Below, in pieces: positions 22,071 through 62,765 of a stretch of DNA of 64,000 nucleotides. The notes under the pieces are model-generated. The model was not told the DNA's origin. It ran no database searches and saw nothing but the letters and a program-made list of their open reading frames with translations. The translations under genes and the position numbers were made by a program. This DNA comes from Rhizomicrobium electricum (GTDB taxonomy: Bacteria > Pseudomonadota > Alphaproteobacteria > Micropepsales > Micropepsaceae), in contig NZ_JAASQS010000003.1 in assembly GCF_011762045.1 (NCBI RefSeq), forward strand, positions 124,001-188,000. The letters run 5' to 3'. How positions within the stretch are numbered: the first letter of the stretch is position 1; each line of letters opens with the position of its first letter.

Positions 22071-22437
22071 GATCCGCCCTCCGCGCCACCGGTGCGTGTA
22101 CCGCCTCGGAAGCCGAAGCTCCCGCGGAAAGCCAGCAACGCACCGCCTCGCTGCAAACGGTCGAGACCTTCTGCCAAAGGTCGACCGCTGCCCCCGACAG
22201 GTTGGCACACAACTGGGCCTAGAACTCCATCTCGCCCGACGCCGAACATACGAAAGTATGTAGCGCGATATACGACTGAACAGAGGCGCCATACGACAGC
22301 ACGGCTATATCCGCGGGTTCCTTTACTCAAGCTTGAGGCGCCTACCGCACCCTGCCAGCACGCAACAGATGGTGATCGCTGACGCCGAATGGTCCTGTAT
22401 ATCGGACGGCGGACGGAGCGGTCGGAGGAGCAATCGC
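22071..22437. other. 367-bp region between the divergent kinase and chemoreceptor genes
   Basis: It should hold both promoters and the leaders of the two genes. I see no further gene, hairpin terminator or repeat. The ribosome binding site GGAGGA for the chemoreceptor lies at 22424-22429. Confidence 0.5.
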
Positions 22438-24321
22438 GTGTTTGTCGGAATCAAAGACCTGTCCGTCAGTAAGAAAGTAATCGGCGCATTTGCGCTCGTT
22501 CTCATCGCAACGATCGGGCTTGGATTCTTCTCGGTCGGGCGACTGAGCCTGGTCAACCAAAAAGCGGCCGATATTCGCGACAACTGGCTTCCGGCCACGC
22601 GCGAACTCGGAGAAATAAAATACATCACCATGCGATATCGTCAGCGCCAGGCGGTCTACTTGATGCTCACTTCCGACACGGAGCGGGAGAAGGAACGCTC
22701 CAATATGGCTGCCCTTAGAACCGAGTTCGACGAAGCCTACAAGAAATACGAAGCCACGATCGACACCGATGAGGAGCGCGAGATCGCAAAAGCGATCAAT
22801 GCCGCCTGGCAAAGCTATCTCGCACGGGAAACATCCTTGTTCGGAGACCAGCAGAGCAAGGGATCGGCCGCAGCGTTCGAAGACTACAAGACGACATCCA
22901 AGGATCTCTTCGACGTAGTCCGCAATGCCATTGCAACCGACATAAAATTCAACGCCGAGCATGGCGCTACGGCAGCCGCCGACGCGCAAAAGACCTTCAA
23001 GCAAGCGCAGGTTCTGATCTACGGCGCTCTTGCAATCGCCCTGGCGCTTGGTCTCGGTTGCGGTTTTGCTCTGATCCGGTCGGTTTCCAAGCCGCTATCC
23101 AATATGACCGATGCTATGGGCGAATTGGCGAACGGCAATCTCGATGCCCATGTCCCGCATGCCGACCAGCACGACGAAATCGGTCAACTTGCCGGCGCAA
23201 TGACCGCGTTCAAAAACCAGCTGGCAGCCGCCGAACGGTCCAAGGCCGAACAGACCAAGGTTATCGTCTCGAGCATCGGCAAAGGACTTGACCAGCTCGC
23301 CCAAGGCGACTTGACCCACCGCATCTCGACCGATCTCACCGGCCCCTTCGCGAAGCTAAAGGAAGACTTCAATAACGCGATGGAGCACCTCGAACATACG
23401 ATGCAGAACGTGTTGTCGAGCACGTCGCAGATTGCAACGGGCGCCGGCGAGGTTTCGCAGGCCGCGGACGATCTGGCGCATCGCACCGAGAAGCAGGCAG
23501 CGAGTCTGGAAGAGACCGCCGCAGCCCTTGAGGAGATCACTGCGACCGTGAAAAAAACGGCGCAGAACGCGCGCGACGCCAGCGCTACCGTAGCCGAAGC
23601 GAAAAAGGCCGCGGAGGAAGGCGGCCGCGTCGTCGATACGGCGGTGAAGGCGATGGATGCGATAGCCGACTCCTCCAAGCAGATCACGGACATCATCAGC
23701 GTCATCGACGAAATCGCCTTCCAGACCAATCTCCTGGCGCTCAATGCCGGCGTAGAAGCGGCGCGCGCCGGTGAAGCAGGCCGAGGGTTTGCCGTCGTTG
23801 CCAGCGAAGTGCGTGCACTGGCGCAGCGATCAAGCGAAGCGGCAAAGCAAATCAAGATGCTGATAGGAACCTCCGGCGAGCACGTCGGAACCGGCGTGAA
23901 GCTGGTGGGCGAATCCGGCCGGGCATTGCGGCACATCATCGACCAAGTGCTGCACATCAACGCACTCGTCACCGAAATGACAAACGCGAGCGAACAGCAA
24001 TCCGCAGGTCTGGAGCAGGTCAATAGCGCGGTGGGGCAGATGGACCAAGTTACGCAGCAGAACGCGGCCATGGTCGAGGAAAGTACTGCAGCCTCGCGCA
24101 GTCTTGCGGGAGAAACCCATAAGCTGAATGAAATTGTCTCCTTCTTTGAAGTGCGGCAAGCCGACCATTCCAACAAATCCGTACACCCCGTCGAACGCTT
24201 TGTGACGAAAGCGAACGCTCGCAATCCTTTACCACAGAGGACCTCCTCCCCTCGTCCGGCGCCCCGCGCAACCGCGATGGCTGCCGTGCAGACCGCCGAC
24301 GAAGATTGGGCTGAGTTCTGA
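22438..24321 (+). CDS. Methyl-accepting chemotaxis protein
   Basis: About 627 residues from GTG 22438, preceded by GGAGGA at eight bases. An N-terminal helix ([22 protein letters not shown]), a four-helix-bundle ligand domain (about 35-185), a second helix, two HAMP-like segments, and the signalling hairpin with [42 protein letters not shown]. The C-terminus DWAEF looks like the xWxxF pentapeptide that tethers CheR or CheB. It is followed by cheW and a PAS gene, with no CheA in the window, so the operon may feed a kinase encoded elsewhere. Confidence 0.95.
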
Positions 24322-33828: not shown

Positions 33829-33875
33829 ATCGTAGCAAGCCGCGAAACAGCTAAGGTAGGGTCGGAATCTACTCA
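33829..33875 (-). promoter_or_regulatory. Regulon box with -10 hexamer, for the DUF6600 gene
   Basis: On the - strand TGAGTAGATTCCG followed by ACCCTACC, and TACGAT at box position 42 (33829-33834). Downstream gene starts at 33615. Confidence 0.8.
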
Positions 33876-33921
33876 GCATTCGCACGCCAGCGGCGTCCAC
33901 ACCCGGTGCTGCGCCGTTGCG

Positions 33922-34039: not shown

Positions 34040-34086
34040 ACTCTAGCCCAACGGCCACTTCACCGGGCAGGCTCGGAATATACTCA
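34040..34086 (-). promoter_or_regulatory. Regulon box with -10 hexamer, for the candidate small RNA
   Basis: On the - strand TGAGTATATTCCG, then AGCCTGCC, and TAGAGT at box position 42. The next protein gene on this strand has its own box, so this copy serves the small RNA at 33922-34035. Confidence 0.75.
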
Positions 34087-34215
34087 AGTGAACGTGCCCG
34101 GCAGTCAGCGGCGTTACCGCCAAGCCCCAGCCCGATCGACAGCGTGGCCGTGTCGAGCGTCTCTCCCAGTCGTGCGCTGCCCCAATTCGCGATTGGCGCA
34201 AAGCCGCCGCCGGCA

Positions 34216-34261
34216 TGAGTACATTCCGGTCCTGCCGTGCTGCAAACAGCGAGGCTATAGA
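34216..34261 (+). promoter_or_regulatory. Regulon box with -10 hexamer, for the CsbD gene
   Basis: TGAGTACATTCCG then GTCCTGCC; TATAGA at box position 41 (34256-34261), the best -10 of the set. Downstream ATG at 34346. Confidence 0.85.
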
Positions 34262-34345
34262 TATCGTTCAGTGCCTCATGTTTACGCGGCGGCGCCAGAA
34301 CCGACGCCCGCTTCGGCGAGCACCGCAACCACAAAGGAACATACG

Positions 34346-34546: not shown

Positions 34547-34617
34547 CAACTTGCCCGGAGCCACTATTTCCGATCAAGAGAACGAACGCATGGTCATCGA
34601 GGCGCGGCCCGAACGGC

Positions 34618-34663
34618 TGAGTAGATTCCGGTCCTTTCCGACTGAATCCAGCGATGGCAGTGT
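34618..34663 (+). promoter_or_regulatory. Regulon box with weak -10, for the YRDGYWD-repeat gene
   Basis: TGAGTAGATTCCG then GTCCTTTCC; CAGTGT at box position 41. Downstream ATG at 34726. Confidence 0.75.
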
Positions 34664-34725
34664 CTTCAAACCGCTGTCGTATCGCGCTTGCTTGGCGCAG
34701 GTGGCAGCTAGCTGAGGATTCCAAC

Positions 34726-35457: not shown

Positions 35458-36081
35458 CTAATCGGTGTACCAGTTGCCATCGTTGTGGCGGCAGGCCGTG
35501 CCGGTGCGATTATAGGATTGTCCGTTGCTATATCCCGCTTCCCTGAAATCACGACAGACATTGCCGTTGCGCGAATACTCACGGGTCGGCGTGAAGCTGC
35601 CGTAGCTCTGTCCATCGGGGGCGCGCCAGCGATGACGCTGACCGACTCGACCGTTGAAGCCCTGACCGTAGGAGGCCATGGCGACGCGCCGATCGTCGCA
35701 ATTCATATTGCTCGCAATCGTGTTGCCAACAAGACCGCCGAGAATAACGCCTCCGACAACGGCACCGCCGTTGCCGCGCCCGGCAGAATTGCCGATCAAA
35801 CCACCGACAACGGCGCCTAATAAGGCACCCGCGGCGGCATTGTTGCTGCAATCCCGACCGTAATAGTATGCCCCTTGCTTATAGCCGACGTCGCGACGAT
35901 AGGGATCGGGCCGATAACGATCATTGCGGTCGCGGCGGGCATAACCGTCGTCGTAACCGTAGTTGTAGCCGTTACCATAACTGGGTTGATTTCGATCCCC
36001 GCGACCATCTTGCGCCGTTGCCGTGCCGGCGCACACTACGATTGCCACCGTGGCGAGCAGCAAGCCCATCCTTTTCGACAT
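35458..36081 (-). CDS. 17-kDa-antigen-like glycine-zipper protein (copy A)
   Basis: 207 residues, signal peptide (LLLATVAIVVCAGTATA), a tyrosine/arginine/aspartate-rich region with YGNGYNYGYDDGYARRDRND, then a glycine zipper GALLGAVVGGLIGNSAGRGNGGAVVGGVILGGLVGNTIA (about residues 85-125) and a C-terminal globular segment with four cysteines in all (CSNN, MNCDD, VCRD, ACRH). This is the plan of Rickettsia 17-kDa surface antigen-like proteins that sit in the outer membrane. Strongly similar to the gene at 40257. A box is found upstream at 36193-36213. Confidence 0.87.
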   Translation of the reverse strand: MSKRMGLLLATVAIVVCAGTATAQDGRGDRNQPSYGNGYNYGYDDGYARRDRNDRYRPDPYRRDVGYKQGAYYYGRDCSNNAAAGALLGAVVGGLIGNSAGRGNGGAVVGGVILGGLVGNTIASNMNCDDRRVAMASYGQGFNGRVGQRHRWRAPDGQSYGSFTPTREYSRNGNVCRDFREAGYSNGQSYNRTGTACRHNDGNWYTD

Positions 36082-36168: not shown

Positions 36169-36213
36169 ATAGTATTCGATCGCGCAAACTCCGGTAGCAT
36201 CGGAAACTACGCA
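36169..36213 (-). promoter_or_regulatory. Regulon box with -10, for the glycine-zipper gene copy A
   Basis: On the - strand TGCGTAGTTTCCG then ATGCTACC; TACTAT at box position 40. It lies back to back with the box at 36260, the two first bases being 47 bp apart. Confidence 0.8.
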
Positions 36214-36259
36214 AAGGCGCGCGCAACGCACCTCACGATGACCGATTTCCGAGGCCGTC

Positions 36260-36304
36260 TGAGTAGATTCCGAATCTCCCATTCCGGCCGTACTCCTCTA
36301 GGCT
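36260..36304 (+). promoter_or_regulatory. Regulon box with -10, for the lpxR-like gene
   Basis: TGAGTAGATTCCG then AATCTCCC; TAGGCT at box position 40. Downstream ATG at 36450, preceded by GGGGGAG. Confidence 0.8.
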
Positions 36305-36449: not shown

Positions 36450-37445
36450 ATGAAAACGACCACGTTCGCCTATCTTGCACTGCTCGCTGCGCTCGGTACC
36501 TCCGGCGCACAGGCGGCGGACGAACCCAGGCCCGAAAAAGGCACTCTGGGCATCCTTTTCGAGAACGACTGGTTCAACAATGCCGACCACAACTATACCA
36601 ACGGCATCGAGATCACCTACACAACGGCGCCACAAGACACGCCTGAGTGGCTCGTCGACACGGCACACTGGCTGCCATTCTTCACCGCGACAAGCGACGT
36701 ACGCACGCGTTATGCGCTGGGCCAGACGATGTTCACGCCGCTCGACACAACCCTGGCCAACCCGTCCCTGACGGATCGCCCTTATGCCGGTTTCCTGTTC
36801 GGCACCTTCGGCCTTGCCGGCGACAGCGGCACCCATCTGGACCAATTTCAGATCACGATCGGCGTGGTCGGACCGATGTCGATCGCCGGCGATACGCAAA
36901 GTTGGCTGCACGGCGCCATCGGCGATGCGAAATCGAAGGGCTGGCACTATCAACTGCGCAACGAACCCGGCCTCATCCTTCAGTATGAGCGCTCCATCAA
37001 GCTCATCCCGCCAAAATCGATTCTGGGTCTGATCTTCGATTTTGAACCGCACTACGGCGCAGCGGTCGGCAACGTCTACGACTTCGCTAATATCGGCGCG
37101 ATGGCGCGTCTGGGCTTCAACCTGCCGGGCGACTACGGCCCAATGCGGATCGATCCGAGCCTGCCGGGGTCGAACTTCTTCGAACCCACGGGAGGAATCA
37201 GCGCCTACATCTTTGCCGGCGTCGACGGCCGCGCGATCGGGCGCAACATTTTCCTCGACGGCAACACGTTTGAACACAGCCGCAGCGTGAGCAAGATGAA
37301 TCTCGTTTACGACTACGATCTCGGCGCTGCGGTCACCTTCCATGCCGTCCGGCTTTCCTATACCTACGTCATCCGCAGCCGCGAGTTCAAAACGCAGCCC
37401 GCCATGAGTAAATTCGGCGCGATGGCGCTTTCATTCCGGTTCTAG
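36450..37445 (+). CDS. lpxR: LpxR-family lipid A 3'-O-deacylase
   Basis: 331 residues, signal peptide (FAYLALLAALGTSGAQA), mature start with GILFENDWFNNADHNYTNGIEITYT: the E-N-D...D-x-x-Y-T-N-G motif carries the Asn/Asp of the LpxR active site. Further SWLHGAIGDAKSKGWHYQLRNEPGL, containing the expected histidine region, and many beta strands ending in F-R-F at the C-terminus, typical of outer-membrane barrels. It removes the acyloxyacyl group from lipid A on the cell surface, a change made under host or stress conditions. It has its own box. Confidence 0.88.
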   Translation: MKTTTFAYLALLAALGTSGAQAADEPRPEKGTLGILFENDWFNNADHNYTNGIEITYTTAPQDTPEWLVDTAHWLPFFTATSDVRTRYALGQTMFTPLDTTLANPSLTDRPYAGFLFGTFGLAGDSGTHLDQFQITIGVVGPMSIAGDTQSWLHGAIGDAKSKGWHYQLRNEPGLILQYERSIKLIPPKSILGLIFDFEPHYGAAVGNVYDFANIGAMARLGFNLPGDYGPMRIDPSLPGSNFFEPTGGISAYIFAGVDGRAIGRNIFLDGNTFEHSRSVSKMNLVYDYDLGAAVTFHAVRLSYTYVIRSREFKTQPAMSKFGAMALSFRF

Positions 37446-37603
37446 TGTTTCCGTCGCGTCGATCCCCCTACTGCATTCGGCTCTGCCGAATGAGATTCCG
37501 TGGCTCGGCCTCGATCAGGCGCGCCCAACGCCAAGCATCAACCTCACGGCGCACTTCGCGGCCGAGCAACGTCGAAGGCATCAGGGCGGTCTCACATACT
37601 TTC

Positions 37604-37649
37604 TGAGTAGATTCCGTCACTCGCTGTTGCGACTGACATGGCGCATAAA
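37604..37649 (+). promoter_or_regulatory. Regulon box with -10, for the small membrane protein gene
   Basis: TGAGTAGATTCCG then TCACTCGC; CATAAA at box position 41. Downstream ATG at 37694. Confidence 0.78.
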
Positions 37650-37693: not shown

Positions 37694-38059
37694 ATGAAAC
37701 AATCGTCGCCACAGAGAACGATCAAACGGCGGACTATCGCGCTCTACGACGTGAGCTATCGCGTCAAATCCTGGGGCCGCCGCGGAATGCTTGTGGGCTG
37801 TATCCTCGGCTTTGCCGCCGGGTTGATTTTTCTGGCCACGTCTTTCGCGCCCGGCATTCTCGCATCCCGTATCATCGGCACATTGATCATCACCACGATA
37901 GAGGGCGCCGTCATCGCCGGGGCGCTGAGCGCCTGTGCCGCCGCACTTTATGGCAAGGGCGTTCTTCGCGGCAGAGCCGCGCGAATCGATTGCACGCATT
38001 CGACCGCCTACAGGACACCGCAGGCCGACTGGCAGAAACGAGATATCCCCCGCATCTGA
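37694..38059 (+). CDS. Small two-helix membrane protein, paralogue of 51962
   Basis: 121 residues. After a basic start comes VKSWGRRGMLVGCILGFAAGLIFLATSFAPGILASRIIGTLIITTIEGAVIAGALSACAAALYGKGV: two membrane segments with glycines. The same W-G-R-R-G...G-T-L...E-x-A-V-I-x-G plan occurs in 51962-52393, so the pair is a small family of its own. No function known. Preceded by a box. Confidence 0.78.
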   Translation: MKQSSPQRTIKRRTIALYDVSYRVKSWGRRGMLVGCILGFAAGLIFLATSFAPGILASRIIGTLIITTIEGAVIAGALSACAAALYGKGVLRGRAARIDCTHSTAYRTPQADWQKRDIPRI

Positions 38060-38750: not shown

Positions 38751-39372
<622 letters not shown>

Positions 39373-39422: not shown

Positions 39423-39468
39423 AGTCTATTGATGGCGTAGTGGTCCCGGCAGCCTCGGAATCTACTCA
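39423..39468 (-). promoter_or_regulatory. Regulon box with -10, for the collagen-like gene
   Basis: On the - strand TGAGTAGATTCCG then AGGCTGCC; TAGACT at box position 41, the same hexamer as at 52608 and 55943. Downstream ATG at 39372. Confidence 0.85.
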
Positions 39469-39483
39469 AACTCCGCAGCCGGA

Positions 39484-40256: not shown

Positions 40257-40949
40257 CTAATCCGTGTACCAGTTGCCGTCGTTGTGGCGGCAGGCCGTTC
40301 CAGTGCGATTGTAGGAACGCCTGTTGCTGTATCCCGACTCTCTGAAATCGCGGCAAGTGTTGCCATCGCGCCTGAACTCGCGTGTTGGCGTGAAATAGCC
40401 GTAGCCGCCGCTCCGGTTGCGCCAGTTGTGGCGTTCGCCAACGCGGCCTTCAAATCCCACGCTATAGGAGTTCATGGCCATGCGGCGGTCGTCGCAGTTC
40501 ATGTTGCTTGAGATCGCGTTACCCGCGAGACCGCCGAGGATGACGCCGCCGACGACAGCGCCGCCGTCGCCGTGGCTCACTCCGCTGCCGATCAATCCGC
40601 CGGCAACGGCACCCATGATCGTGCCGGCGGCAGTATTGCCGGAACAGTCCTTGCCGTAATAGTAGGTCCCGCGCTCATAGCGGGTTTCGTGCCGATAGGG
40701 GTCGGACCTGTAGCGGTCGTTGCGGTCGCGGCGGGCATAGCCGTCGTCGTAACCGTAGTTGTAGCCGTTGCCGTAGTAGGGCTGGTTGGGATCGGCGCGG
40801 TCGTTCTGGCGGCCGTTGTCGCGGTCATTCCAGCCGGAATTATTCCGACCACTATTCTGCTGGTCGTGGTCGTAAGGGTCTGCGTTTGCCGCGCCGGTAC
40901 CAAACACGATCGCCGCCGTGGCGAGCAACATGCTCATCCTGTTCAACAT
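40257..40949 (-). CDS. 17-kDa-antigen-like glycine-zipper protein (copy B)
   Basis: 230 residues; signal (MLLATAAIVFGTGAANA), YGNGYNYGYDDGYARRDRND as in copy A, glycine zipper GTIMGAVAGGLIGSGVSHGDGGAVVGGVILGGLAGNAIS (about 100-140) and the same cysteine-bearing C-terminus with NRTGTACRHNDGNWYTD. DNA similarity to copy A extends over most of the gene, so this is a recent duplication. It is boxed at 41062-41082. Confidence 0.9.
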   Translation of the reverse strand: MLNRMSMLLATAAIVFGTGAANADPYDHDQQNSGRNNSGWNDRDNGRQNDRADPNQPYYGNGYNYGYDDGYARRDRNDRYRSDPYRHETRYERGTYYYGKDCSGNTAAGTIMGAVAGGLIGSGVSHGDGGAVVGGVILGGLAGNAISSNMNCDDRRMAMNSYSVGFEGRVGERHNWRNRSGGYGYFTPTREFRRDGNTCRDFRESGYSNRRSYNRTGTACRHNDGNWYTD

Positions 40950-41036: not shown

Positions 41037-41082
41037 ACAATACCCCGAAGAGGCGGGCGGCAGCAGCGCCGGAAACTACTCA
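41037..41082 (-). promoter_or_regulatory. Regulon box with -10, for the glycine-zipper gene copy B
   Basis: On the - strand TGAGTAGTTTCCG then GCGCTGCT; TATTGT at box position 41. Downstream ATG at 40949. Confidence 0.85.
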
Positions 41083-41133
41083 ATCGCGTTCCCGCACGCG
41101 AGAATGCGCCGCCCCCGTTTGCCGCGACGAAAA

Positions 41134-41423: not shown

Positions 41424-41469
41424 ACATAACGGCATACGGGCCCGACCGACGAGGTTCGGAATTTACCTA
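41424..41469 (-). promoter_or_regulatory. Regulon box with -10, overlapping the kinase stop codon
   Basis: On the - strand TAGGTAAATTCCG then AACCTCGT; TTATGT at box position 41. The first three bases are the TAG stop of the hybrid kinase gene. Confidence 0.65.
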
Positions 41470-44400
41470 GATCTCTTTGCGTCCCTGCCGGCTTCCGCCC
41501 GAAGGCTCATTGTCGGCAGACTGCGAGGCCGCGGCTACCGCCAGCCGTGCCAGCGCCGGGAGCGATTTCGCGCCGGTCTTCTTCATGATCGCGGCGCGAT
41601 GGTTCTCGACTGTGCGCTGGCTGACGCCGAGATCCGCGGCAATGTTCTTGCTGGGATGGCCTGCAAGAACCATCTCCATGATCTGGATCTGACGCGGTGT
41701 GAGACCCTCCAGGTGATGCGCGGCTTCCTCTCGCCAGGCGGACAGCTTCGACGTATCCTTGGAGTGCTCCAATGCGCGCTTAACGCTGGCGATCAGGTCG
41801 CCGGCGCTGATCGGCTTTTCGAGGAAGTCCAGCGCACCCGCCTTCATGGCCTTCACCGCGATCGGTACGTCGCTGTTGCCGGTGATCATGATGGCCGGAA
41901 GGCTATGGCCCGCGCCGTGGAGCCGGTCCAGCAATTCAAGCCCGCTAAGTCCGGGCAGGTAGGCGTCTATCAGAAGGCAACCTTCGCGGGCAGGACGATA
42001 GGCCCGGAGAAATTCCTCCGCATCGGCATAATCCTCGACGGTCATGCCCTCCCCCTCGAAGGCGGTGCGGACCCCGTCGCGAATGTTGGCGTCGTCGTCG
42101 ACAATGTAGACGACAGGTTTTCCAGGAGCACTCGGCGCTGCCACCTGATGCGCGATATGCGCTGGCATTTCCGCCGCCGGCAGCCTGCGCCGGATGGCCG
42201 CCGTCAGCTCCATGAGTTTCACCGGCTTGTTGAGCTGCAGGTATTTCCGCTTTGCGATGTCCCGCAATGTGCTCGTCGAAATGTCGCCGGTAAGAATAAT
42301 GACGGCAATCTCGCGCTGAAGATTTTCCTGCAGTTTCGCCGCCACCTGGAGACCGTTCATGCCATTGGGAAGATTGAAGTCGGCCAGGACGAGGTCAGGC
42401 TTGGCCGCCCCGCATGCGACAAGATCGAGCGCCGCGACTCCGTCGGGAGCCGCCGTCGTGACGAAGCCCTCGTCCTTGAGCGTCAGCTCAAGCAGCTCGC
42501 GCACCTCGGGATCGTCCTCGATCACCAAGATCGAGCCGGAGCGGCGTGCGCCCTCGGCCGCCAAACTCTGTATCGCCGGCTGTGAGAGATCGGGCGGCGC
42601 GATCTTCTTGCCCAGCGGAAGCGTGATTTCGATGGAAAACATGGAGCCCTTGCCCGGCCACGACTGGACGCGCACCGGATGCCCCAGCAGGTTTCCCAGC
42701 CGCTGCACGATGGAAAGACCGAGGCCGAGGCCGCGGCTGCGCTCGCGGGCGTCGTTGTCGAGCTGATGATACTCCGCGAAGATCGCCTGCAGTTCGTCAT
42801 CGGGAATGCCGATGCCGGTATCCCAAATCTCGATGCAGAGCTTGCCTCCACACCGGCGGCAGCCGAGCAGCACCTTGCCGCGGGGGGTGAATTTCATCGC
42901 GTTGGACAGCAGGTTACGGATCATCTGCTCGAGCAGGCGCGGATCGGTGTAAATCGACAGATCACATGGAACGACGCGCAGCGACACACCCTTGGCCTGT
43001 GCGAGGTAGGAGAATTCGTCCCTCAACCGCTCGAACAGATCATTGACCGGAAACGTGGTGGGCTCGGCGCGAACCGTTCCGGCGTCGATCTGGTTGATGT
43101 CCAGCAGCGTGTTCAGCATGCTCGACACGGCCGTCAGGACCTGGTCGAACCTGGCAACCAGCTTCTGCGCCACAGGCCCTTCCGCCGTTTTCGCCAATTG
43201 TCCCTGAAGCAATGCCAGCGTCTGAAGCGGTTGGCGCAAATCGTGGCTCGCGACGGCCAGGAAGCGAGACTTGGCGATGCTGGCCTGTTCCGCTTGTGCC
43301 TTGGCGGCCTGGAGCGCCTCCGCTACCCGCCGGCGCTCGGTCGAGTCGACAAACGTGATGATGACGCCTTCGACCACATTGTCCTTGGTGCGGTAAGGCA
43401 ATACGCGGCGAACGTACCAGGCGCCGCTCTGCGCTTCGATCTCCCGCTCGATCGGTTCGAACGTCTTCAGGACGGTTTGCGCATCGCTCAGCAGCGCACT
43501 ATCGGCGGCCAACGAACTCAAGTCGGCCAACGGCCGCCCGACGTCGCCGGGAAGAACGCGAAACAGGAGCTTGGTGGCTGGCGTGAAAAACCGAATGGCG
43601 AGTTTGGTATCGAGGAAAAGCGTCGCCACATTCGTGCTGTAGAGAACGTTCTGCAGGTCGTCCGATGTCCGGCGCTGCAGTTCCAGTGTTTCCTGAAGCT
43701 GGGTATTGAGCGCCGTCAGTTCCTCGTTGAGCGACTGCAGCTCCTCCTTGGACGCCAGCAACTCCTCGTTGGTCGATTGGAATTCCTCGTTGACCGACAA
43801 GGCTTCTTCATTGATGGCGTTCTGTTCCTGAACCGAGAGCTCCAGGTTGCGAGCGGCGCCGTCGAGTTCCTTTCGCACCGCCTGCAGTTCGTGCTCCAGT
43901 TCGGCAACGCGTGAAACCTCTCTGGTCGGAACCCGCGCGCCCGGTTTGCGTTTGTCTTTGGGTTCGTCGACGAAACAGATGAGCAGCAGCTTCTCGGTCT
44001 CATACGTGACCGACTGCACGACGATGTTGAAAGGTGTCACGCCGGCGCGCAGCGAACCGCCGGGAACCACAATCCGGCTGTTTTCCTGGGCGGCCAGCTT
44101 GATGGCAGACCGCAGCTTGGTGCGCAGGTCGGCGCGTGTCATGGTGAGAAGATCGAGCGTGGGGAAACCGGGCGCCAGGTGCAGGTACTTGTCGACAGGC
44201 CCCAGCGAGTAGAGGCACTCGAACTTCTCGTTAATCAACACCGCTGCCGGGGCGTAGGCCTCCATCACCAGCCGGCGGCACAATTCCGCGATCGCGGTTT
44301 GACGCGACATCACCGGTTTCTGTCTCGGGGCTGAGGGAAGAATCGTGTGAGGACTGAAAGTCTGCGCCAAAACGGGATCGTCCGGCTGGCTCAGACCGAC

Positions 44401-45885
44401 GTGTCGATAAACGCGCTCCGTCTTCGAGACGATCGCAAAATGGCTGCTGTCACCCGCGACGGATTCCGAATTACCGAGCAGGAGAATGCCGCCGTCGCGC
44501 AATGCGAAATGGAAGCGCGCCAAGGCTCGCTTCTGGGCATCCGGTCCCAGATAGATCAAAAGATTGCGGCACGAAACCATGTCCAGACGCGAAAACGGCG
44601 GATCGGCGAGGACGTCCTGTACGGTGAAAACGACGGCCGCGCGCAAATCGGGCGACACTCTGTAGCTGCGACCCTCCTTCACAAAAAAGCGGGCAAGCCG
44701 CTCCGGCGAGATTTCGGCGGCAATCGTTCCAGGATAGAGCGCGTCCCGTGCCGTAGCGATTGCGTCGGGATCGATGTCGGACGCGAAGACCTGAAGCCTG
44801 ATCTCCCGCTTGGCCGCGGCGATCTGCTCGCGAAACAGGATGGCGAGCGAATAGGCTTCTTCGCCCGAACTGCATCCCGCGATCCAGATGCGCAAAGGCC
44901 GATCTTCGGGGTGGTTTCGGATCAGGCCGGGGATGACTTTCTCGGCCAGGAGATCGAAGACCTTGGGATCACGGAAAAAACTCGTGACGTTGATGAGCAG
45001 ATCCTTGGCGAGAAGGTCGAGTTCTTTGGCATCCTTGTGCAGCAGCTTGAGATAGTTGCCGATGCCGCCTGTTCCGCCGCCCGTCATCGCCATGCGGCGT
45101 TCGATCCGGCGCTGCAATGTACCGGTCTTGTACAATGAGAAGTCGTGTGCGGTTTTGGTCCGCAGAAGGTCGATGATCTCGGGCAACCTGTCGGCGGTGC
45201 CTTCCTGCGCGCTCGCCTCCCCATGCGGTCCGGGCCCGATCTGCTTGGCGTTTTTGATCAGCGCACCGGGAATTTGCTCCACCGCCAGTACGACGTCCAC
45301 GGCGCCGGTGGCAATGGCGCTGCTCGGCATTCCGTCGTAACCCGCATCACTCGGGTCTTGGGCGATGACGAATCCGCCTTTTTCCTTGACGGACTTCAGC
45401 CCAAGGCTGCCGTCGGCTCCCGTTCCCGACAGAACCACGCACACCGCGCGCTTGCCGCAATCCCGAGCCAACGAATGCAGCAAGTAATCGAACGGCAGCC
45501 GCGCCCCGTGCCGTGCCCTGGGTGGCGTGAGGAGCAAAGTGCCGTTGGCGACCGAGAGATACACGCCTGGCGGAATGACATAGACGTGATCGCGCTCGAT
45601 CCGCATTCCAGTCACCGCCTGCTGCACGAACATGGGAGTGCTGGCGGTCAGCAGATCCACCATCATGCTTTCGTGGTTCGGATCGAGGTGCTGGACGAGG
45701 ATAAAGGCCATGCCTGAGCCGGCCGGCAGCGCACCGAGGAACTTCCGGAACGCGTCAAGGCCACCCGCAGAGGCGCCAATCGCCACCACCGGAAAATCGC
45801 CGGAGGTAGGGCGAACACGCCGCGTCGGTCGTGATTTCGACCGCGCACGGGCCACTTTGGCCTTTTGCGGACGGCGCTTGGGCAT
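41467..45885 (-). CDS. CheB-CheR-PAS-histidine kinase-two-receiver-FixJ HTH fusion protein
   Basis: About 1472 residues from ATG 45885 (the frame extends to 46080 without support). Order: CheB methylesterase with IGASAGG, VQHLDPNHESMM and VVLSGTGADGSLG (catalytic Ser, His, Asp); CheR with RIWIAGCSSGEEAYSLAI and SCRNLLIYLGPDA; coiled coil (about 700-790); PAS; HisKA with VASHDLRQPLQTL; HATPase with NLLSNAMKF, DTGIGIPDDEL, GLGLGLS; receiver 1 with IEDDPEV, VLADFNLP, QLNKPVKL; receiver 2 with IVDDDANIR, CLLIDAYLP, FLEKPI; and an HTH ending SQRTVENHRAAIMKKTGAKSLPALARLA, strikingly FixJ-like. All phosphotransfer residues are present. Soluble. It could sense, relay and bind DNA alone. It lies in the middle of the boxed region. 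Confidence 0.93.
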   Translation of the reverse strand: MPKRRPQKAKVARARSKSRPTRRVRPTSGDFPVVAIGASAGGLDAFRKFLGALPAGSGMAFILVQHLDPNHESMMVDLLTASTPMFVQQAVTGMRIERDHVYVIPPGVYLSVANGTLLLTPPRARHGARLPFDYLLHSLARDCGKRAVCVVLSGTGADGSLGLKSVKEKGGFVIAQDPSDAGYDGMPSSAIATGAVDVVLAVEQIPGALIKNAKQIGPGPHGEASAQEGTADRLPEIIDLLRTKTAHDFSLYKTGTLQRRIERRMAMTGGGTGGIGNYLKLLHKDAKELDLLAKDLLINVTSFFRDPKVFDLLAEKVIPGLIRNHPEDRPLRIWIAGCSSGEEAYSLAILFREQIAAAKREIRLQVFASDIDPDAIATARDALYPGTIAAEISPERLARFFVKEGRSYRVSPDLRAAVVFTVQDVLADPPFSRLDMVSCRNLLIYLGPDAQKRALARFHFALRDGGILLLGNSESVAGDSSHFAIVSKTERVYRHVGLSQPDDPVLAQTFSPHTILPSAPRQKPVMSRQTAIAELCRRLVMEAYAPAAVLINEKFECLYSLGPVDKYLHLAPGFPTLDLLTMTRADLRTKLRSAIKLAAQENSRIVVPGGSLRAGVTPFNIVVQSVTYETEKLLLICFVDEPKDKRKPGARVPTREVSRVAELEHELQAVRKELDGAARNLELSVQEQNAINEEALSVNEEFQSTNEELLASKEELQSLNEELTALNTQLQETLELQRRTSDDLQNVLYSTNVATLFLDTKLAIRFFTPATKLLFRVLPGDVGRPLADLSSLAADSALLSDAQTVLKTFEPIEREIEAQSGAWYVRRVLPYRTKDNVVEGVIITFVDSTERRRVAEALQAAKAQAEQASIAKSRFLAVASHDLRQPLQTLALLQGQLAKTAEGPVAQKLVARFDQVLTAVSSMLNTLLDINQIDAGTVRAEPTTFPVNDLFERLRDEFSYLAQAKGVSLRVVPCDLSIYTDPRLLEQMIRNLLSNAMKFTPRGKVLLGCRRCGGKLCIEIWDTGIGIPDDELQAIFAEYHQLDNDARERSRGLGLGLSIVQRLGNLLGHPVRVQSWPGKGSMFSIEITLPLGKKIAPPDLSQPAIQSLAAEGARRSGSILVIEDDPEVRELLELTLKDEGFVTTAAPDGVAALDLVACGAAKPDLVLADFNLPNGMNGLQVAAKLQENLQREIAVIILTGDISTSTLRDIAKRKYLQLNKPVKLMELTAAIRRRLPAAEMPAHIAHQVAAPSAPGKPVVYIVDDDANIRDGVRTAFEGEGMTVEDYADAEEFLRAYRPAREGCLLIDAYLPGLSGLELLDRLHGAGHSLPAIMITGNSDVPIAVKAMKAGALDFLEKPISAGDLIASVKRALEHSKDTSKLSAWREEAAHHLEGLTPRQIQIMEMVLAGHPSKNIAADLGVSQRTVENHRAAIMKKTGAKSLPALARLAVAAASQSADNEPSGGSRQGRKEI

Positions 45886-46178
45886 TTGGTGATTTCTCAA
45901 AACCCTGCTTCGAAGCGCGAAGCAATGTTCCACAATAGCATGCCTTTCTGCCGCGGCGATACTGGCGGGCCCTCTGAAACCGGCCATCCGAGCCGATTTT
46001 GGCGCCATCCCGTCGCACTCGCATCTCCAGGGTGCAGTCGGCAAACGCTTGATTAGGGTCACTAACTTTGCAGCGCTCAAGAGACGCGGCCAGACATTCG
46101 AGAGACAACATGGCGGCCGGCGAAGCGCCGTTCGAAGCGGATACGGCGTAGAGGCGGATTACTCCAATCCAACCCGCC
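45886..46178. other. 293-bp region between hybrid kinase and boxed gene
   Basis: It must contain the kinase promoter. I see no box in leftward orientation here, so the kinase seems not to be under its own presumed site. No further gene is evident. Confidence 0.45.
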
Positions 46179-46224
46179 TGAGTAGTTTCCGAACCTTCCC
46201 GCGCCTTACCACGCCGTGCAGCTT
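46179..46224 (+). promoter_or_regulatory. Regulon box with poor -10
   Basis: TGAGTAGTTTCCG then AACCTTCC; CAGCTT at box position 41. Downstream TTG start at 46286. Confidence 0.7.
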
Positions 46225-46285: not shown

Positions 46286-46600
46286 TTGATTGGAGCCCCA
46301 TTCCAACTTGCCGCCGAACGTGCCTGGAAGCACCGCTTTGCACAAACCCTCTATGAGGCCTTCTGCGAGAGCGGGCTGGACCGGGCGGCAGCACTTGCAG
46401 ACGCCTACGCGCATGCCGACGCACAGTACCTGGTTCGCGGAGAGCTAAGCCCCGAAAACGAGGCAAGATCGTCGTTACTCTGGATACAGAGCGATGAGGT
46501 ACAACCGCGCGCCGCCAACACGGACGATGCCACGCCCGCGAACAACCCGCACAACGGCGCCCATCACATCGAAATCGCTAAGACCGATACAACGGACTAG
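46286..46600 (+). CDS. Small hypothetical protein
   Basis: 104 residues from TTG 46286 with GAGGAG ten bases upstream. GAPFQLAAERAWKHRFAQTLYEAFCESGLDRAAALADAYAHADAQYLVRGELSPENEA: helical, no signal, no membrane segment, acidic polar tail. Family not recognised. Boxed. Confidence 0.65.
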   Translation: MIGAPFQLAAERAWKHRFAQTLYEAFCESGLDRAAALADAYAHADAQYLVRGELSPENEARSSLLWIQSDEVQPRAANTDDATPANNPHNGAHHIEIAKTDTTD

Positions 46601-46686
46601 CACGGGTCCCGGACGTTGCGACATCGACCACCAGCTTTGGCTCGTCGAGTCCCACGCCGAACCGAGGTGAGTTGCGCCTCACGCCC

Positions 46687-46732
46687 TGAGTAGATTCCGA
46701 CCCTGAGCGGCCGACCCGTGCAGGACTACATT
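46687..46732 (+). promoter_or_regulatory. Regulon box with -10, for the SYLF gene
   Basis: TGAGTAGATTCCG then ACCCTGAG; TACATT at box position 41 (46727-46732). Downstream ATG at 46794. Confidence 0.83.
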
Positions 46733-46793: not shown

Positions 46794-47369
46794 ATGATGA
46801 ACCTCCGAACCGTTCTTCTTGCCACATCGCTCGCCACGGCGTCGCTGATGACCGTGGGCATGACAGCCCCCGCCTCCGCAGCGTCGGAAACCGATCTCAA
46901 CAAGGACTCCGATCAGGCGCTGGCGACGCTCTACAAACTGCATCCGTTTGCGGAAACGCTTTCGCACAAAGCCAAGGCCATCCTGGTCTTCCCGAATGTC
47001 GTCAAGGCCGGCCTGATCTTCGGCGGCGCGTATGGCGAAGGCGAACTGCTGCAGGGATCGAAGGTCGACAGCTACTACAACACCGTCACCGGATCCTGGG
47101 GTCTCCAGGCGGGCGCGCAGTCGTACTCGTACGTCGTGTTTTTGACGAGCAACAAGGCGCTGCGCTACATCCACAAGTCGCATGGCTGGGAAATCGGCGT
47201 CGGACCGACCGTGGTCATCGTCGACGAAGGCGTGGCCAAGAACCTTTCCTCGTCGACGCTGAAGGACGATGCCTATGCCTTCATCTTCGGCCAGCAGGGC
47301 CTGATGGCCGGCGTCAGCCTCGAAGGCACGAAGATCTCCCGGATCAAACAGAAGACTGCCGGAAATTGA
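46794..47369 (+). CDS. YSC84/SYLF lipid-binding-domain protein
   Basis: 191 residues. Signal MLLATSLATASLMTVGMTAPASA-like; then the SYLF domain KAILVFPNVVKAGLIFGGAYGEGELLQGSKVDSYYNTVTGSWGLQAGAQSYSYVVFLTSNKALRYIHKSHGWEIGVGPTVVIVDEG. Such secreted proteins occur in many stress regulons and bind lipids in other organisms. Boxed. Confidence 0.93.
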   Translation: MMNLRTVLLATSLATASLMTVGMTAPASAASETDLNKDSDQALATLYKLHPFAETLSHKAKAILVFPNVVKAGLIFGGAYGEGELLQGSKVDSYYNTVTGSWGLQAGAQSYSYVVFLTSNKALRYIHKSHGWEIGVGPTVVIVDEGVAKNLSSSTLKDDAYAFIFGQQGLMAGVSLEGTKISRIKQKTAGN

Positions 47370-48026: not shown

Positions 48027-48060
48027 CGATCGGGCCGGGACCACAAGCGGAGCGCATTTC

Positions 48061-48106
48061 TGAGTAGTTTCCGAAGCTACCGGGCCCGGCGGCTCAGGTT
48101 CACACC
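48061..48106 (+). promoter_or_regulatory. Regulon box with poor -10, for the alcohol dehydrogenase gene
   Basis: TGAGTAGTTTCCG then AAGCTACC; CACACC at box position 41. Downstream ATG at 48181. Confidence 0.75.
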
Positions 48107-48180
48107 ACGGCGCGCCAATGCTGACGCGGCGCCGACCAAGCCGTCTCGTGTATCGGGCCACTTCAAAAGGACAACCGACC

Positions 48181-49218
48181 ATGAAAGCACTCGTCTATCT
48201 CGGGCCGGGAAGGAAGTCTCTCGATGAGCGGCCGAAGCCCGATGTGATGGCGTCTACCGACGCCGTCGTGAAAATCACGAAGACGACCATATGCGGCACC
48301 GATCTTCACATCCTGAAAGGTGACGTCGCCAGCTGCTTGCCGGGACGCATCCTTGGGCACGAAGGTGTCGGCATCGTCGACAAGACGGGGCCGGGCGTCA
48401 CCGCGTTCAAACCGGGCGATCATGTCCTGATCTCCTGCATCAGCGCTTGCGGGCGGTGTGTCTATTGCCGAAAGCAGATGTATTCGCACTGCACGACCGG
48501 CGGCTGGATCCTCGGCAACACCATCGACGGAACGCAGGCCGAATTCGTCCGCATTCCGCACGCCGATACGAGCCTCTATCATATTCCCGCCGGCGCGGAC
48601 GAAGAGGCGTTGGTCATGCTGAGCGACATCCTTCCGACCGGCTTCGAATGCGGCGTGCTCAACGGCATGGTCCAGCCGGGAAACACGGTCGCCATCGTCG
48701 GCGCGGGGCCGATCGGGCTTGCTGCGCTGCTCACGGCGCAGTTCTTTTCGCCGGCCCAGATCATCATGATCGACCTTGACGACAATCGGCTGGAAGTCGC
48801 CAAGCGGCTGGGCGCCACCGGAACCGTCAACAGCTCCAATGGAAAAGCCTCCGAAACCATCAAGGAGATGACCGGCGGGCTTGGAGTCGACACTGCGATC
48901 GAAGCAGTCGGCATTCCCGCCACCTTCCAGTTGTGCCAGGAGATCATCGCGCCCGGTGGCACAATCGCCAATGTCGGCGTTCATGGCAAGAAAGTGGGCC
49001 TCCATCTGGAGACACTGTGGGACCGCAACATCACCATCACGACACGGCTGGTGGACACGATCAGCACGCCGATGCTGCTCAAAACCGTCGGGTCTCACAA
49101 AATAGACCCAAAACTCCTGATCACCCATCGTTTCAAGCTTGGTCACATTCTCGACGCCTACGAGACGTTCGCGCATGCCGCGGACAACCATGCGCTAAAG
49201 GTCGTCATAGAGGCCTGA
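48181..49218 (+). CDS. Zinc-dependent alcohol dehydrogenase
   Basis: 345 residues. Catalytic zinc site TICGTDLHILKGD and GHEGVGIVDKTG, structural zinc site CISACGRCVYCRKQMYSHC with four cysteines, cofactor site VAIVGAGPIGLAALL, and LWDRNITITTRLVDT near the end. MDR superfamily, threonine or alcohol dehydrogenase-like; the true alcohol is unknown. Within a stress regulon it may detoxify aldehydes. The iron-permease-like gene follows with two bases between. Confidence 0.92.
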   Translation: MKALVYLGPGRKSLDERPKPDVMASTDAVVKITKTTICGTDLHILKGDVASCLPGRILGHEGVGIVDKTGPGVTAFKPGDHVLISCISACGRCVYCRKQMYSHCTTGGWILGNTIDGTQAEFVRIPHADTSLYHIPAGADEEALVMLSDILPTGFECGVLNGMVQPGNTVAIVGAGPIGLAALLTAQFFSPAQIIMIDLDDNRLEVAKRLGATGTVNSSNGKASETIKEMTGGLGVDTAIEAVGIPATFQLCQEIIAPGGTIANVGVHGKKVGLHLETLWDRNITITTRLVDTISTPMLLKTVGSHKIDPKLLITHRFKLGHILDAYETFAHAADNHALKVVIEA

Positions 49219-49655: not shown

Positions 49656-49827
49656 CCTTCACCGAAGCACACCGCGCCCAGCGACACGGACATGTCGTCG
49701 TCTCCCGGCTGCTCTTGCCGGTTCTCTGAACGCAGAAGCGGAAAAGCCGCCGGTCACATGATGCCGCTTTGGGCTGCGCAGAAGACGCAAGCCTTCACGT
49801 GTATACGCACACTCGCTCACTTGGCTG

Positions 49828-49873
49828 TGAGTACATTCCGATCCTGCCGCCATGGCTGCGAGACCCGTATATC
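49828..49873 (+). promoter_or_regulatory. Regulon box with -10, for the OmpA-like lipoprotein gene
   Basis: TGAGTACATTCCG then ATCCTGCC; TATATC at box position 41, one of the best. Downstream ATG at 49892, predicting a leader of only about 12 nt. Confidence 0.85.
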
Positions 49874-50753: not shown

Positions 50754-50987
50754 ATGAAACACGTCATCAGCTTCCGTCGCCCAGAACTGCGCCACGTGCT
50801 AGCCACGATGACGGTTCCGCCCGAAGGGGATGTGCCGGCGCAAATCCGCCACCTGGAAAGTCTCGGGTACACAATCGTTGCGGTGTCGCCGCCACTCGAG
50901 GCCTACGGCCCGCCGCAACCTTCCCGCAAGCCCGAATTGATCGCAGTCTCTGAACCAAGCACTTCGGCTCGGAACGACGCTGAGTAG
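50754..50987 (+). CDS. Small HxISFRRP-type protein (paralogue of 53398)
   Basis: 77 residues from ATG 50754 (GGAGG upstream). MKHVISFRRPELRHVLATMTVPPEGDVPAQIRHLESLGYTIVAVSPPLEAYGP; the same frame occurs in 53398. No signal, no membrane helix. The last codons (GAG TAG) are part of the next box. Confidence 0.68.
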   Translation: MKHVISFRRPELRHVLATMTVPPEGDVPAQIRHLESLGYTIVAVSPPLEAYGPPQPSRKPELIAVSEPSTSARNDAE

Positions 50988-51026
50988 TTTCCGAAACTGC
51001 CTAACGATCGGCGACGGTGACACTCT
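50981..51026 (+). promoter_or_regulatory. Regulon box with poor -10, overlapping a stop codon
   Basis: TGAGTAGTTTCCG then AAACTGCC; CACTCT at box position 41. The box begins within the last codons of the small gene at 50754. Downstream ATG at 51139. Confidence 0.75.
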
Positions 51027-51747: not shown

Positions 51748-51841
51748 ACGAAAGACCTGTCATAACCGCTCGCGTGTACATCTGCGCATTCCTGTTGCAA
51801 CGGCAAAACCGGCTCGGCGCCTGCTTCGTATTACGTCGACG

Positions 51842-51887
51842 TGAGTAGATTCCGGGCCTGCCGTGCCTCGTAAGCCTGTCCTACAAA
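51842..51887 (+). promoter_or_regulatory. Regulon box with -10
   Basis: TGAGTAGATTCCG then GGCCTGCC; TACAAA at box position 41. Downstream GTG at 51962. Confidence 0.82.
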
Positions 51888-51961
51888 TATCATCCGATGC
51901 TTCATTCTCGCGCGACGCCATCAGGCGCCCGCCGCACCGGAAGTTATTGAGGAGGTACACC

Positions 51962-52393: not shown

Positions 52394-52567
52394 GTCACGA
52401 GCAGGGCGATTTCGTCGACCGATGCCCAGGCGCGTCTCTGCGACTGCAACCGCGACCTCGTCGGAGCCGCCAGTGCGCTTTTACACGATCCGAACCGGCA
52501 CGATATAGCGTGGGGAACAGCGGCACTTCCCGGCGTCATCAATACCCACCGCCGTCCGCTTCGACTT
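52394..52567. other. Spacer before a boxed PAS gene
   Basis: No gene, hairpin with T-run or repeat seen. The box follows at 52568, so the whole gap to the PAS start (366 bp) is regulatory or leader. Confidence 0.4.
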
Positions 52568-52613
52568 TGAGTAGTTTCCGAAGGTCGTCGCCACCACATT
52601 CCCCCGCTAGACT
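52568..52613 (+). promoter_or_regulatory. Regulon box with -10, for the PAS protein gene
   Basis: TGAGTAGTTTCCG then AAGGTCGT; TAGACT at box position 41. Downstream ATG at 52760, so the leader is about 140 nt. Confidence 0.8.
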
Positions 52614-53990: not shown

Positions 53991-54358
53991 AGTCGCAATT
54001 CCTCCAGTGACACGTTGACGAACGATGCGGCGAAGTTGCACTCCGCCGCAATTCAACGTTTTCGGCAAGTTGGAGTCTACAACACAACGGCAGGCTTCAT
54101 CCGACAAATATGCCGTCACCGGCGAGATATAACCATCGTATGTGCCGGTTACAAGCAAATGCCGGGAATCCTGTACTTCGAATGCCCCCGACAGAGTAAT
54201 GCGATCCTCATGCCGACTAGGGAACACCCCCATGCTTCAGCTAGGCGGACGTGAACTCGGCCTCCTATGAGGCGCCCTGCGCCAATAGTTTCGCTGCTGA
54301 CACGTCTTCGCTGCATGGAACCAGATACGCCCAAGCTGCAGTTCGGCGACATCGCGCC
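53991..54358. other. 368-bp region with no clear gene
   Basis: Should hold the promoter of the RMF-like gene. A box-like stretch near 54066 is too degenerate to count. No repeats or hairpins with T-runs seen. Confidence 0.4.
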
Positions 54359-54404
54359 TGAGTACATTCCGAGCCTGTCGTGCTTGCCCGCATGAGCCTA
54401 CCTC
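54359..54404 (+). promoter_or_regulatory. Regulon box with -10, for the OmpA gene
   Basis: TGAGTACATTCCG then AGCCTGTC; TACCTC at box position 41. Downstream ATG at 54506. Confidence 0.8.
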
Positions 54405-55862: not shown

Positions 55863-55902
55863 CGGCCCGCAATCGTTGCGCCGCAAGGAGGAACCGAACT
55901 CC

Positions 55903-55948
55903 TGAGTATATTCCGACGCTCCGAGGAAACTTGGCAAAGCCATAGACT
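55903..55948 (+). promoter_or_regulatory. Regulon box with -10, for the hemerythrin gene
   Basis: TGAGTATATTCCG then ACGCTCCG; TAGACT at box position 41. Downstream ATG at 56057. Confidence 0.82.
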
Positions 55949-60333: not shown

Positions 60334-60379
60334 AAATTGTTCCTTTTTACATCGGACGTGAAGCTTCGGAATCTACCCA
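60334..60379 (-). promoter_or_regulatory. Regulon box with weak -10, for the DUF883-polyketide operon
   Basis: On the - strand TGGGTAGATTCCG then AAGCTTCA; CAATTT at box position 41. It lies back to back with the box at 60440. Confidence 0.75.
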
Positions 60380-60439
60380 GTCATTACCGCCGTTCGCAGC
60401 TTGAGAGATGAAGATGTTTCCGCGCCGCTCTCGCAGCAA

Positions 60440-60485
60440 TAAGTATAATCCGGACCTGCCCGCCGGCCATACACAAGCATAGATG
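60440..60485 (+). promoter_or_regulatory. Regulon box with -10, for the truncated sensor gene
   Basis: TAAGTATAATCCG then GACCTGCC; TAGATG at box position 41. Two positions of the core differ from consensus but CCTGCC and the -10 place are exact. Downstream ATG at 60516. Confidence 0.7.
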
Positions 60486-62594: not shown

Positions 62595-62640
62595 TAGAGG
62601 CTACTCAACGCCGGTCGGTGCAAGATTCGGAATCTACTCA
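62595..62640 (-). promoter_or_regulatory. Regulon box with doubtful -10, plus a second half-box
   Basis: On the - strand TGAGTAGATTCCG then AATCTTGC; the position-41 hexamer is CCTCTA. A second TGAGTAG half-site starts 33 bases further (62601-62607) and may matter instead. Downstream ATG at 62501. Confidence 0.65.
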
Positions 62641-62765
62641 GGCAGCCGATACATGCAGAAGTTTTGACTTGCCGTTTTCGCCCCAAACAAAATCCGACGG
62701 CTTGAGCCTATCCATACCAACAGCCAATTGCTGCGCACGGCTGCATGTCGATATCGTTTCTGCAC

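Follow-up and report, generated by a model that had tools for sequence, protein, structure and literature searches.

In a 64,000-nucleotide stretch of the Rhizomicrobium electricum genome (assembly GCF_011762045.1, contig NZ_JAASQS010000003.1, positions 124,001 to 188,000; hereafter the window), one gene encodes a 1472-residue protein, P0001, that fuses CheB and CheR domains to PAS-type domains, a histidine kinase, two receivers and a DNA-binding domain. We propose that P0001 is a one-chain, soluble two-component system and controls an island of stress genes of its own through the DNA motif CTGAGTAG(A/T)TTCCGA, a reading drawn from sequence to which we give a probability of roughly 0.73. What is new is the motif and its link to the fusion; the architecture itself is already in public records.

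In the proposed mechanism, two PAS domains and the long helix between them would receive a cytoplasmic cue, presumably a stress signal, and set the activity of the HisKA/HATPase kinase. H881 would hand its phosphate to D1307 of the second, FixJ-like receiver, and D1169 of the first receiver may serve as a competing sink, brake or reverse path. The C-terminal helix-turn-helix (HTH) would then bind CTGAGTAG(A/T)TTCCGA about 50-230 bp ahead of the island genes, probably as an activator. Genes under its control would include those for SYLF, CsbD, hemerythrin, OmpA, LpxR and zinc alcohol dehydrogenase in the window, and Dps, Usp, PRC-barrel, BON and oleate hydratase in relatives.

The motif was derived from the 400 bp upstream of 54 fusion loci, 27 of which share the string TCGGAAA (maximum 12 in 10 shuffles). 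A matrix built from these upstream regions found sites above 9 bits in 44 of the 54, the same loci on which it was trained. To limit this circularity we retrained the matrix without the window and six same-genus loci (47 loci, 39 used), a set that may still contain other genus members among the named records. The retrained matrix returned AGCCTCGGAAACTACTCAG and found 22 sites of at least 14 bits in the window, all within 33858-62641; the expected number was 0.3, and 50 Markov copies yielded at most 2. In the 4.73-Mb genome the exact core TCGGAAWHTACTYA is found 13 times, with 11 occurrences inside this 29-kb stretch, and its reversed-pattern control occurs 0 times. Close to one of the two exact sites outside the island (L147, G000:C7:275125), a hybrid kinase-receiver gene ends.

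Across 61 related genomes (own included), exact sites were found in 10 of 11 with the fusion (85 sites) versus two of 50 without it (one each), and the reversed control gave seven sites in total (Fisher P 7.8e-9 for co-occurrence, kinship ignored). In a sample of the class, nine of 12 full-fusion genomes have an exact site. Exact sites were present in one of two genomes with shortened matches (G217, G077), in one of five whose best match is CheB-CheR without the output half, and in neither of two same-genus genomes without the fusion; G096, whose listed match is a kinase-REC-REC-HTH chain without CheB-CheR, has three. One genome of this sample (G360) carries 22 exact sites over many contigs, and the regulon may therefore be wide in some species.

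We asked how the sites lie relative to genes, calling an orientation reverse when CTGAGTAG(A/T)TTCCGA reads toward the gene. With gene starts set by eye, 19 of the 22 window sites are in reverse orientation; for one, the sole gene lies in the other orientation, and four have genes both ways. The sites, placed relative to genes and open reading frames (ORFs), are as follows.

33858..33876, plus strand, before the DUF6600 gene 31834-33630
34069..34087, plus strand, no gene assigned in reverse orientation
34215..34233, minus strand, before the CsbD gene in 34019-34546
34617..34635, minus strand, before ORF 34654-35235
36196..36214, plus strand, before the 17-kDa-antigen-like gene 35458-36081
36259..36277, minus strand, before the LpxR gene 36450-37445
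37603..37621, minus strand, before ORF 37694-38059
39451..39469, plus strand, before the collagen-like ORF 39013-39372
41065..41083, plus strand, before the 17-kDa-antigen-like gene 40257-40949
41452..41470, plus strand, where the fusion gene ends (3' side), left without a gene in the count
46178..46196, minus strand, in the gap that separates the fusion gene from its divergent neighbours
46686..46704, minus strand, 90 bp before the Ysc84/SYLF gene
48060..48078, minus strand, before the zinc alcohol dehydrogenase gene 48118-49218
49827..49845, minus strand, before the OmpA-family gene 49892-50395
50980..50998, minus strand, before ORF 51139-51747
51841..51859, minus strand, just before ORF 51863-52393, start unassigned in the count
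52567..52585, minus strand, before the PAS-domain gene 52715-53368
54358..54376, minus strand, before the beta-barrel/OmpA gene 54380-55558
55902..55920, minus strand, before the hemerythrin gene 55985-56560
60362..60380, plus strand, before ORF 59780-60316
60439..60457, minus strand, before ORF 60483-61217
62623..62641, plus strand, before ORF 62295-62501

Judged from these positions, likely targets are the SYLF, LpxR, OmpA and zinc alcohol dehydrogenase genes and the two 17-kDa-antigen-like genes, and further likely ones are the genes for CsbD, hemerythrin, the PAS protein, the OmpA-type barrel and DUF6600 and the unnamed ORFs. The motif would make targets predictable in fusion-carrying genomes.

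Plasmid-borne fusions show the same placement. At the 13 distinct annotated plasmid loci (L134 is unannotated), the full matrix found 43 sites of at least 17 bits, 42 of them intergenic against an annotated coding fraction of 79%; a non-fusion gene lies within 350 bp in reverse orientation for 35 and in the other orientation for 11, counts that rest on incomplete gene tables in the records. Ten sites just upstream of the fusion overlap the training regions and were omitted, leaving 33 sites outside the fusion's own upstream region. All 33 are intergenic (P 7e-23), with a gene in reverse orientation for 28 (median 126 bp, range 50-333) and in forward orientation for 11; reverse only accounts for 19 and forward only for two. 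Sites precede CsbD, Usp, PRC-barrel, BON, oleate hydratase and other genes, and are sparse at some loci (none at L120; one each at L129, L131, L132 and L133).

The genes around the fusion point in the same direction. In the window it is flanked on the divergent side by a small ORF, placed by eye at about 46286-46600, and by the following gene:

46794..47369, plus strand, Ysc84/SYLF-domain gene, adjoining the fusion in several relatives too

A SYLF gene adjoins the fusion in two Parvibaculum loci, a Caulobacterales metagenome-assembled genome (MAG) and Pseudokordiimonas, and lies nearby in three same-genus loci. The first-pass annotation saw no obvious partner for the protein, a view that two observations do not support: the shared motif ties the fusion to a stress-gene island, and 27 of 49 unique loci have, no more than 3.5 kb away, a divergent gene for a stand-alone receiver (14), for Dps (9), for Ysc84/SYLF (6) or for a receiver-HTH protein (4), in overlapping categories. 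This count covers loci with at least 2.5 kb upstream, with three loci of identical fusion starts entered once; six of the 27 themselves supplied a query, which gives an independent figure of 21 of 43, and these are raw rates, uncorrected for background. A receiver gene adjoining the fusion in L123 was missed by the length filter. On plasmids the neighbours also include CsbD, Usp, DUF3096, DUF3309, slipin, BON, PRC-barrel, oleate hydratase, AdhP and phosphoketolase, and no neighbour family searched was found at every fusion locus.

Several observations weigh against control of the island by P0001. The site next to the fusion faces the divergent neighbour, and since sites here face the divergent gene, control of the fusion gene itself is possible and not implied. 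Ten of the 54 fusion loci lack an upstream site above 9 bits, three of the 12 full-fusion genomes in the class sample lack an exact site, as does the fusion-bearing G005, and there is no exact site in the genome of G003, whose kinase-REC-REC-HTH chain lacks CheB-CheR. Among the 61 genomes, G019 owes its place in the fusion-bearing group to a fragment of 187 residues (63% identity); moved to the other group, it makes the figures nine of 10 versus three of 51. The fusion-bearing genomes are mostly from one genus and are therefore not independent. The recognition helix SQRTVENHR is usual in loci with and without sites, and single changes occur in both. Two relatives (48-51% identity) are located in polysaccharide clusters and another lies between insertion sequences, so the context of the fusion is not uniform. 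Finally, a DNA-binding domain on a dimeric kinase must have some means of staying inactive, a point made for the hybrid two-component systems (HTCS) of Bacteroides (PMC11253607).

In Humitalea rosea (L051) the recognition helix reads GQRMVENHR for SQRTVENHR and no site of 15 bits is present in 24 kb, which makes it the only suggestive case linking an altered helix to site loss.

An unlikely alternative, although the strongest of those we weighed, is that the motif belongs to another regulator travelling with the island, with the fusion as a co-inherited sensor or a further member. Such a regulator would fit three observations: the position and orientation of the motif suit genes divergent from the fusion rather than the fusion gene, receiver-HTH regulators adjoin the fusion in four of 49 loci, and some fusion genomes lack exact sites. 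Set against this, sites follow the presence of the fusion in the 61 genomes and do not follow CheB-CheR without the output half, and none of the neighbour families searched, which are not a catalogue of every regulator, occurs at all loci.

Three other comparisons were made for the motif. EcfG-type general-stress promoters, by their consensus, lie upstream of the fusion in two of 53 loci versus a shuffle mean of 1.6, and we rejected them. Among palindromic dyads only GCTTC without a spacer beats the shuffle maximum (four loci versus three), and the conserved motif itself is no obvious palindrome. The sites printed for CrbR/ACTU in the available part of its account (PMC5715377) look unlike the present motif when compared by eye. 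Among the titles listed in literature searches on the motif letters, in both directions, none names a regulon of this kind.

The first-pass annotation had described P0001 as a single 1472-residue frame without giving its strand. We confirmed the frame on the minus strand, where it runs from ATG to stop as the complement of 41467-45885, and upstream it stays open as far as a TTG at 46080. Most of the domain boundaries below come from a Pfam profile search of the translated frame, with matches far beyond chance.

41467..45885, minus strand, fusion gene, CheB-CheR-PAS-helix-PAS-HisKA-HATPase-REC-REC-HTH, 1472 residues
45259..45786, minus strand, CheB methylesterase domain without a preceding receiver, residues 34-209 (Pfam E 8.5e-55)
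45031..45180, minus strand, CheR N-terminal all-alpha domain (CheR_N), residues 236-285 (Pfam)
44416..44991, minus strand, CheR methyltransferase domain, residues 299-490 (Pfam E 1.6e-53)
43966..44304, minus strand, first PAS-like domain, residues about 528-640, from predicted fold and a secondary structure that we read as PAS-type
43642..43917, minus strand, predicted continuous helix between both PAS domains, residues 657-748 (92 residues)
43720..43809, minus strand, glutamate ladder, residues 693-722, with five EE pairs spaced exactly 7 residues apart
43345..43656, minus strand, PAS_10 domain, residues 744-847 (Pfam)
43078..43275, minus strand, HisKA with H881, residues 871-936 (25.3 bits, slightly below the cut-off of 26.9)
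42619..42945, minus strand, HATPase_c, residues 981-1089 (Pfam)
42196..42531, minus strand, receiver 1 (REC1) with D1169, residues about 1119-1230
41782..42111, minus strand, receiver 2 (REC2), FixJ-like, with D1307, residues 1259-1368, the better of two receiver matches
41539..41703, minus strand, GerE/LuxR-type HTH, residues 1395-1449 (Pfam)

The earlier annotation had overlooked the PAS-like domain at about 528-640, whose equivalent region matches PF00989 in two relatives (L012 and L069). CheB, CheR_N, CheR and PAS_10 all matched at E 0.01 in 26 of 26 members of a 26-row alignment (A1). The predicted CheB fold aligns to solved CheB 3sft with Z 29.9 (root-mean-square deviation (rmsd) 1.5, 183 residues aligned) and the predicted CheR fold to solved CheR 5xlx with Z 25.6 (rmsd 2.1, 195 aligned). 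AlphaFold2 models of two halves of the chain gave predicted template-modelling scores of 0.35 and 0.37 and inform on domain folds only. No 19-residue window of the chain exceeds 1.6 on the Kyte-Doolittle scale (maximum 1.48), and the earlier description of the protein as soluble therefore fits.

Active-site residues are strongly conserved, in keeping with the original statement that all catalytic and phosphotransfer residues are present. The CheB triad S39, H66 and D158, placed by alignment to solved CheB chains, is invariant in the 26 rows of A1. For the triad aspartate we also considered D184, which is conserved in 20 of 28 chains; alignment to solved CheB gives D158. The remaining residues, which we take to be catalytic from family knowledge, were read from 28 near-full-length chains (own included), with eleven broken or short pieces omitted and rows trimmed to the aligned start. 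CheR R305, D370, N441 and Y445, HisKA H881, HATPase N995 and D1022, REC1 D1124, D1169, T1199 and K1220, and REC2 D1307, T1335 and K1357 are present in 28 of 28; CheR E342 is present in 26 and REC2 D1264 in 27. On the strength of these residues we assume that both CheB and CheR are active as enzymes.

The helix between the PAS domains holds the best-conserved part of the protein: the ten best-conserved 36-residue windows (of 1437) all begin at 692-705. Paired glutamates from E700 to E722 are invariant in the 28 chains, and some likely core positions, by our own heptad assignment, vary. At least three EE pairs at 7-residue spacing occur in 14 of 15 CheB-CheR relatives outside the full-length family (L015 lacks them), and a 69-residue helix query found 14 matches in 41 genomes, 13 in chains with CheB-CheR. 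The remaining match, G010:C43, begins inside CheR, and the front half of its chain is probably on contig C44.

These glutamates raise the tentative idea, which we hold to be possible at perhaps one chance in a few, of a self-adapting kinase in which CheR and CheB would methylate and demethylate the ladder in cis or within a dimer. The chemoreceptor methylation consensus has small residues at four positions flanking each glutamate pair. The five pairs of P0001 score 2, 3, 3, 2 and 2 of 4, short of the full consensus, and four methyl-accepting chemotaxis proteins (MCPs) of the same genome have 4-of-4 pairs, and in each of these proteins two such pairs are 7 residues apart. The mean score over the 28 chains is 2.27 for helix EE pairs versus 1.31 for other EE pairs. 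Because the pairs match the receptor consensus only in part, self-methylation is a testable idea rather than a result, and the conservation of the helix could serve coiled-coil signalling alone. If true, it would place chemoreceptor-style memory within a two-component system and tune a stress regulon to changes rather than levels. Through the motif, the role of CheB-CheR-PAS fusions and their methylation substrates outside chemotaxis becomes testable with one protein and one promoter.

CheB and CheR also suggest a chemotaxis adaptation enzyme that acts on chemoreceptors in trans, with its kinase coupling taxis to expression, a scenario we find slightly less probable than a separate motif-binding regulator. 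The active-site residues are in place, and the genome has 23 MCP-signal matches and seven CheR matches, with one MCP gene about 17 kb away. However, five of the CheR matches lie beyond the two CheB-CheR chains, no receiver precedes the CheB domain by Pfam, and of the neighbours to which Pfam or annotation gives a name, most are stress, envelope or transport genes and none was seen to be a che gene.

We return to control of the island by a one-chain system, and to how phosphate might reach its output. P0001 was originally described as a complete phosphorelay. A His-Asp-His-Asp relay requires a histidine phosphotransfer domain (HPt). A Pfam scan of the whole chain found none, and the two linkers around the receivers, of about 25-29 residues and predicted to be disordered or of low confidence (1091-1115, 1237-1254), would leave no space for one. 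Because the chain has no HPt, P0001 alone would perform His-to-Asp steps and not a four-step relay. The claim that it can sense, relay and regulate alone therefore stands for the sensor, kinase, receivers and DNA-binding output on one chain and falls for the four-step relay.

A relay could still operate in trans, since seven Hpt matches occur elsewhere in the genome. The ShkA pathway is a His-Asp-His-Asp relay with a separate HPt, and P0001 shares the kinase-REC-REC order of ShkA (6qrj, Z 20.2, with an rmsd as high as 13.7 across 319 residues). We nevertheless regard it as improbable that P0001 completes a full relay with an HPt recruited from elsewhere in the cell, in the manner of ShkA-type hybrid kinases. 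None of the seven matches lies in the window, five are in frames of at least 656 residues and two in short ones (191 and 131), and an HPt is not needed because the output receiver is on the same chain.

The fusion is a fairly widespread family. A full-length match (at least 1427 of 1472 residues) was found in 14 of 385 sampled genomes of the class, own included, in a scan with an E limit of 1e-180 and two candidates scored per genome, so that shorter or weaker copies went uncounted. Long matches occur in eight other genomes of the genus, one of which (G005) ends at residue 1388 at a contig end, and in G050. A scan of named genomes gave 43 loci, 25 of which match from residue 33 or earlier to 1438 or later, 19 of these in a single frame; full-length loci include Parvibaculum, Skermanella, Acidisoma, Pararhizobium, Humitalea, Pseudokordiimonas and a Dongia MAG. 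A match at 1e-100 is present in 250 plasmid records. Query coverage reaches 80% or more in 20 of them; 18 of these 20 extend to at least residue 1436, through the HTH, and two stop at 1235. The label "chemotaxis protein CheB" is attached to 12 of the 20, and one more is annotated as two genes. A family often so annotated thus gains a candidate job as a one-chain two-component system with a motif and a stress regulon, sometimes plasmid-borne.

Split forms also exist. In Magnetospirillum fulvum (L056:9887-14845) two adjacent genes encode CheB-CheR-PAS and PAS-kinase-REC-REC-HTH, and in Methylocapsa polymorpha CheB is annotated apart from the remainder. L011, L056 and L061, three forms whose frame lacks CheB-CheR, fall in one clade (99/96) of a midpoint-rooted tree of 50 kinase-receiver rows with an unresolved backbone. 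Five metagenome-assembled copies (L032, L039, L049, L050, L054) are split into two frames by sequencing error or decay. The suspicion that an assembly or sequencing error had joined a kinase gene to a FixJ-like gene, for which the two-gene form in M. fulvum might speak, is scarcely credible and can be set aside, since many relatives hold the same single-frame chain across independent assemblies, including complete plasmids of named strains.

The novelty of the architecture was overstated at first, as the fusion is common in public records and a one-chain hybrid precedent exists in Bacteroides. No study of the full CheB-CheR-to-HTH architecture was found in the literature searched, outside which most subscription journals lie. 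CheB-CheR-PAS proteins, including those with HWE kinases, share the CheB-CheR-PAS_10 front half with its helix and differ in output: an HWE kinase closes the chain in five of the six scanned and the sixth is kinase-less, in contrast to HisKA-HATPase-REC-REC-HTH in P0001. Bacteroides HTCS have an AraC-type output. They carry a kinase, receiver and DNA-binding domain on one chain, as P0001 does, and are transmembrane (PMC11253607), whereas P0001 has no hydrophobic segment and has a GerE output, two receivers and CheB-CheR. P0001 thus fits the general definition of a one-chain hybrid two-component system and, having no transmembrane sensor, falls outside Bacteroides HTCS proper.

FixJ is a protein in its own right, and its kinase is another. 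Receiver 2 and the HTH of P0001 form a FixJ/NarL-type response-regulator output (receiver plus GerE HTH) and align over almost the whole length of Bradyrhizobium FixJ (5xso, 2.8e-39); at 218.1 bits against the NCBIfam FixJ equivalog (cut-off 255), P0001 is not FixJ proper. Its kinase and receiver 1 match the NahK/ErcS-type hybrid kinase model NF041832 over 866-1232 at 364.1 bits, under the cut-off of 400, and this model has no second receiver or HTH. CheB-CheR pairs outside che clusters are reported for the hybrid RC1_3878 of Rhodospirillum centenum (PMC2890560), and CheB/MeTRC is placed among the sensing domains, that is, as kinase input, in Azospirillum kinases (PMC4618731); the available parts of both accounts describe no output domain, motif or regulon.

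Three further features of the window were noted.

22333..24321, plus strand, chemoreceptor gene with an MCP signal domain at about 23590-24054, about 17 kb from the fusion
39013..39372, minus strand, short, secreted-looking collagen-like Gly-x-x repeat protein, motif site 79 bp upstream
35458..36081 and 40257..40949, minus strand, two similar 17-kDa-antigen/glycine-zipper genes, both with a motif site upstream at a distance of about 115 bp

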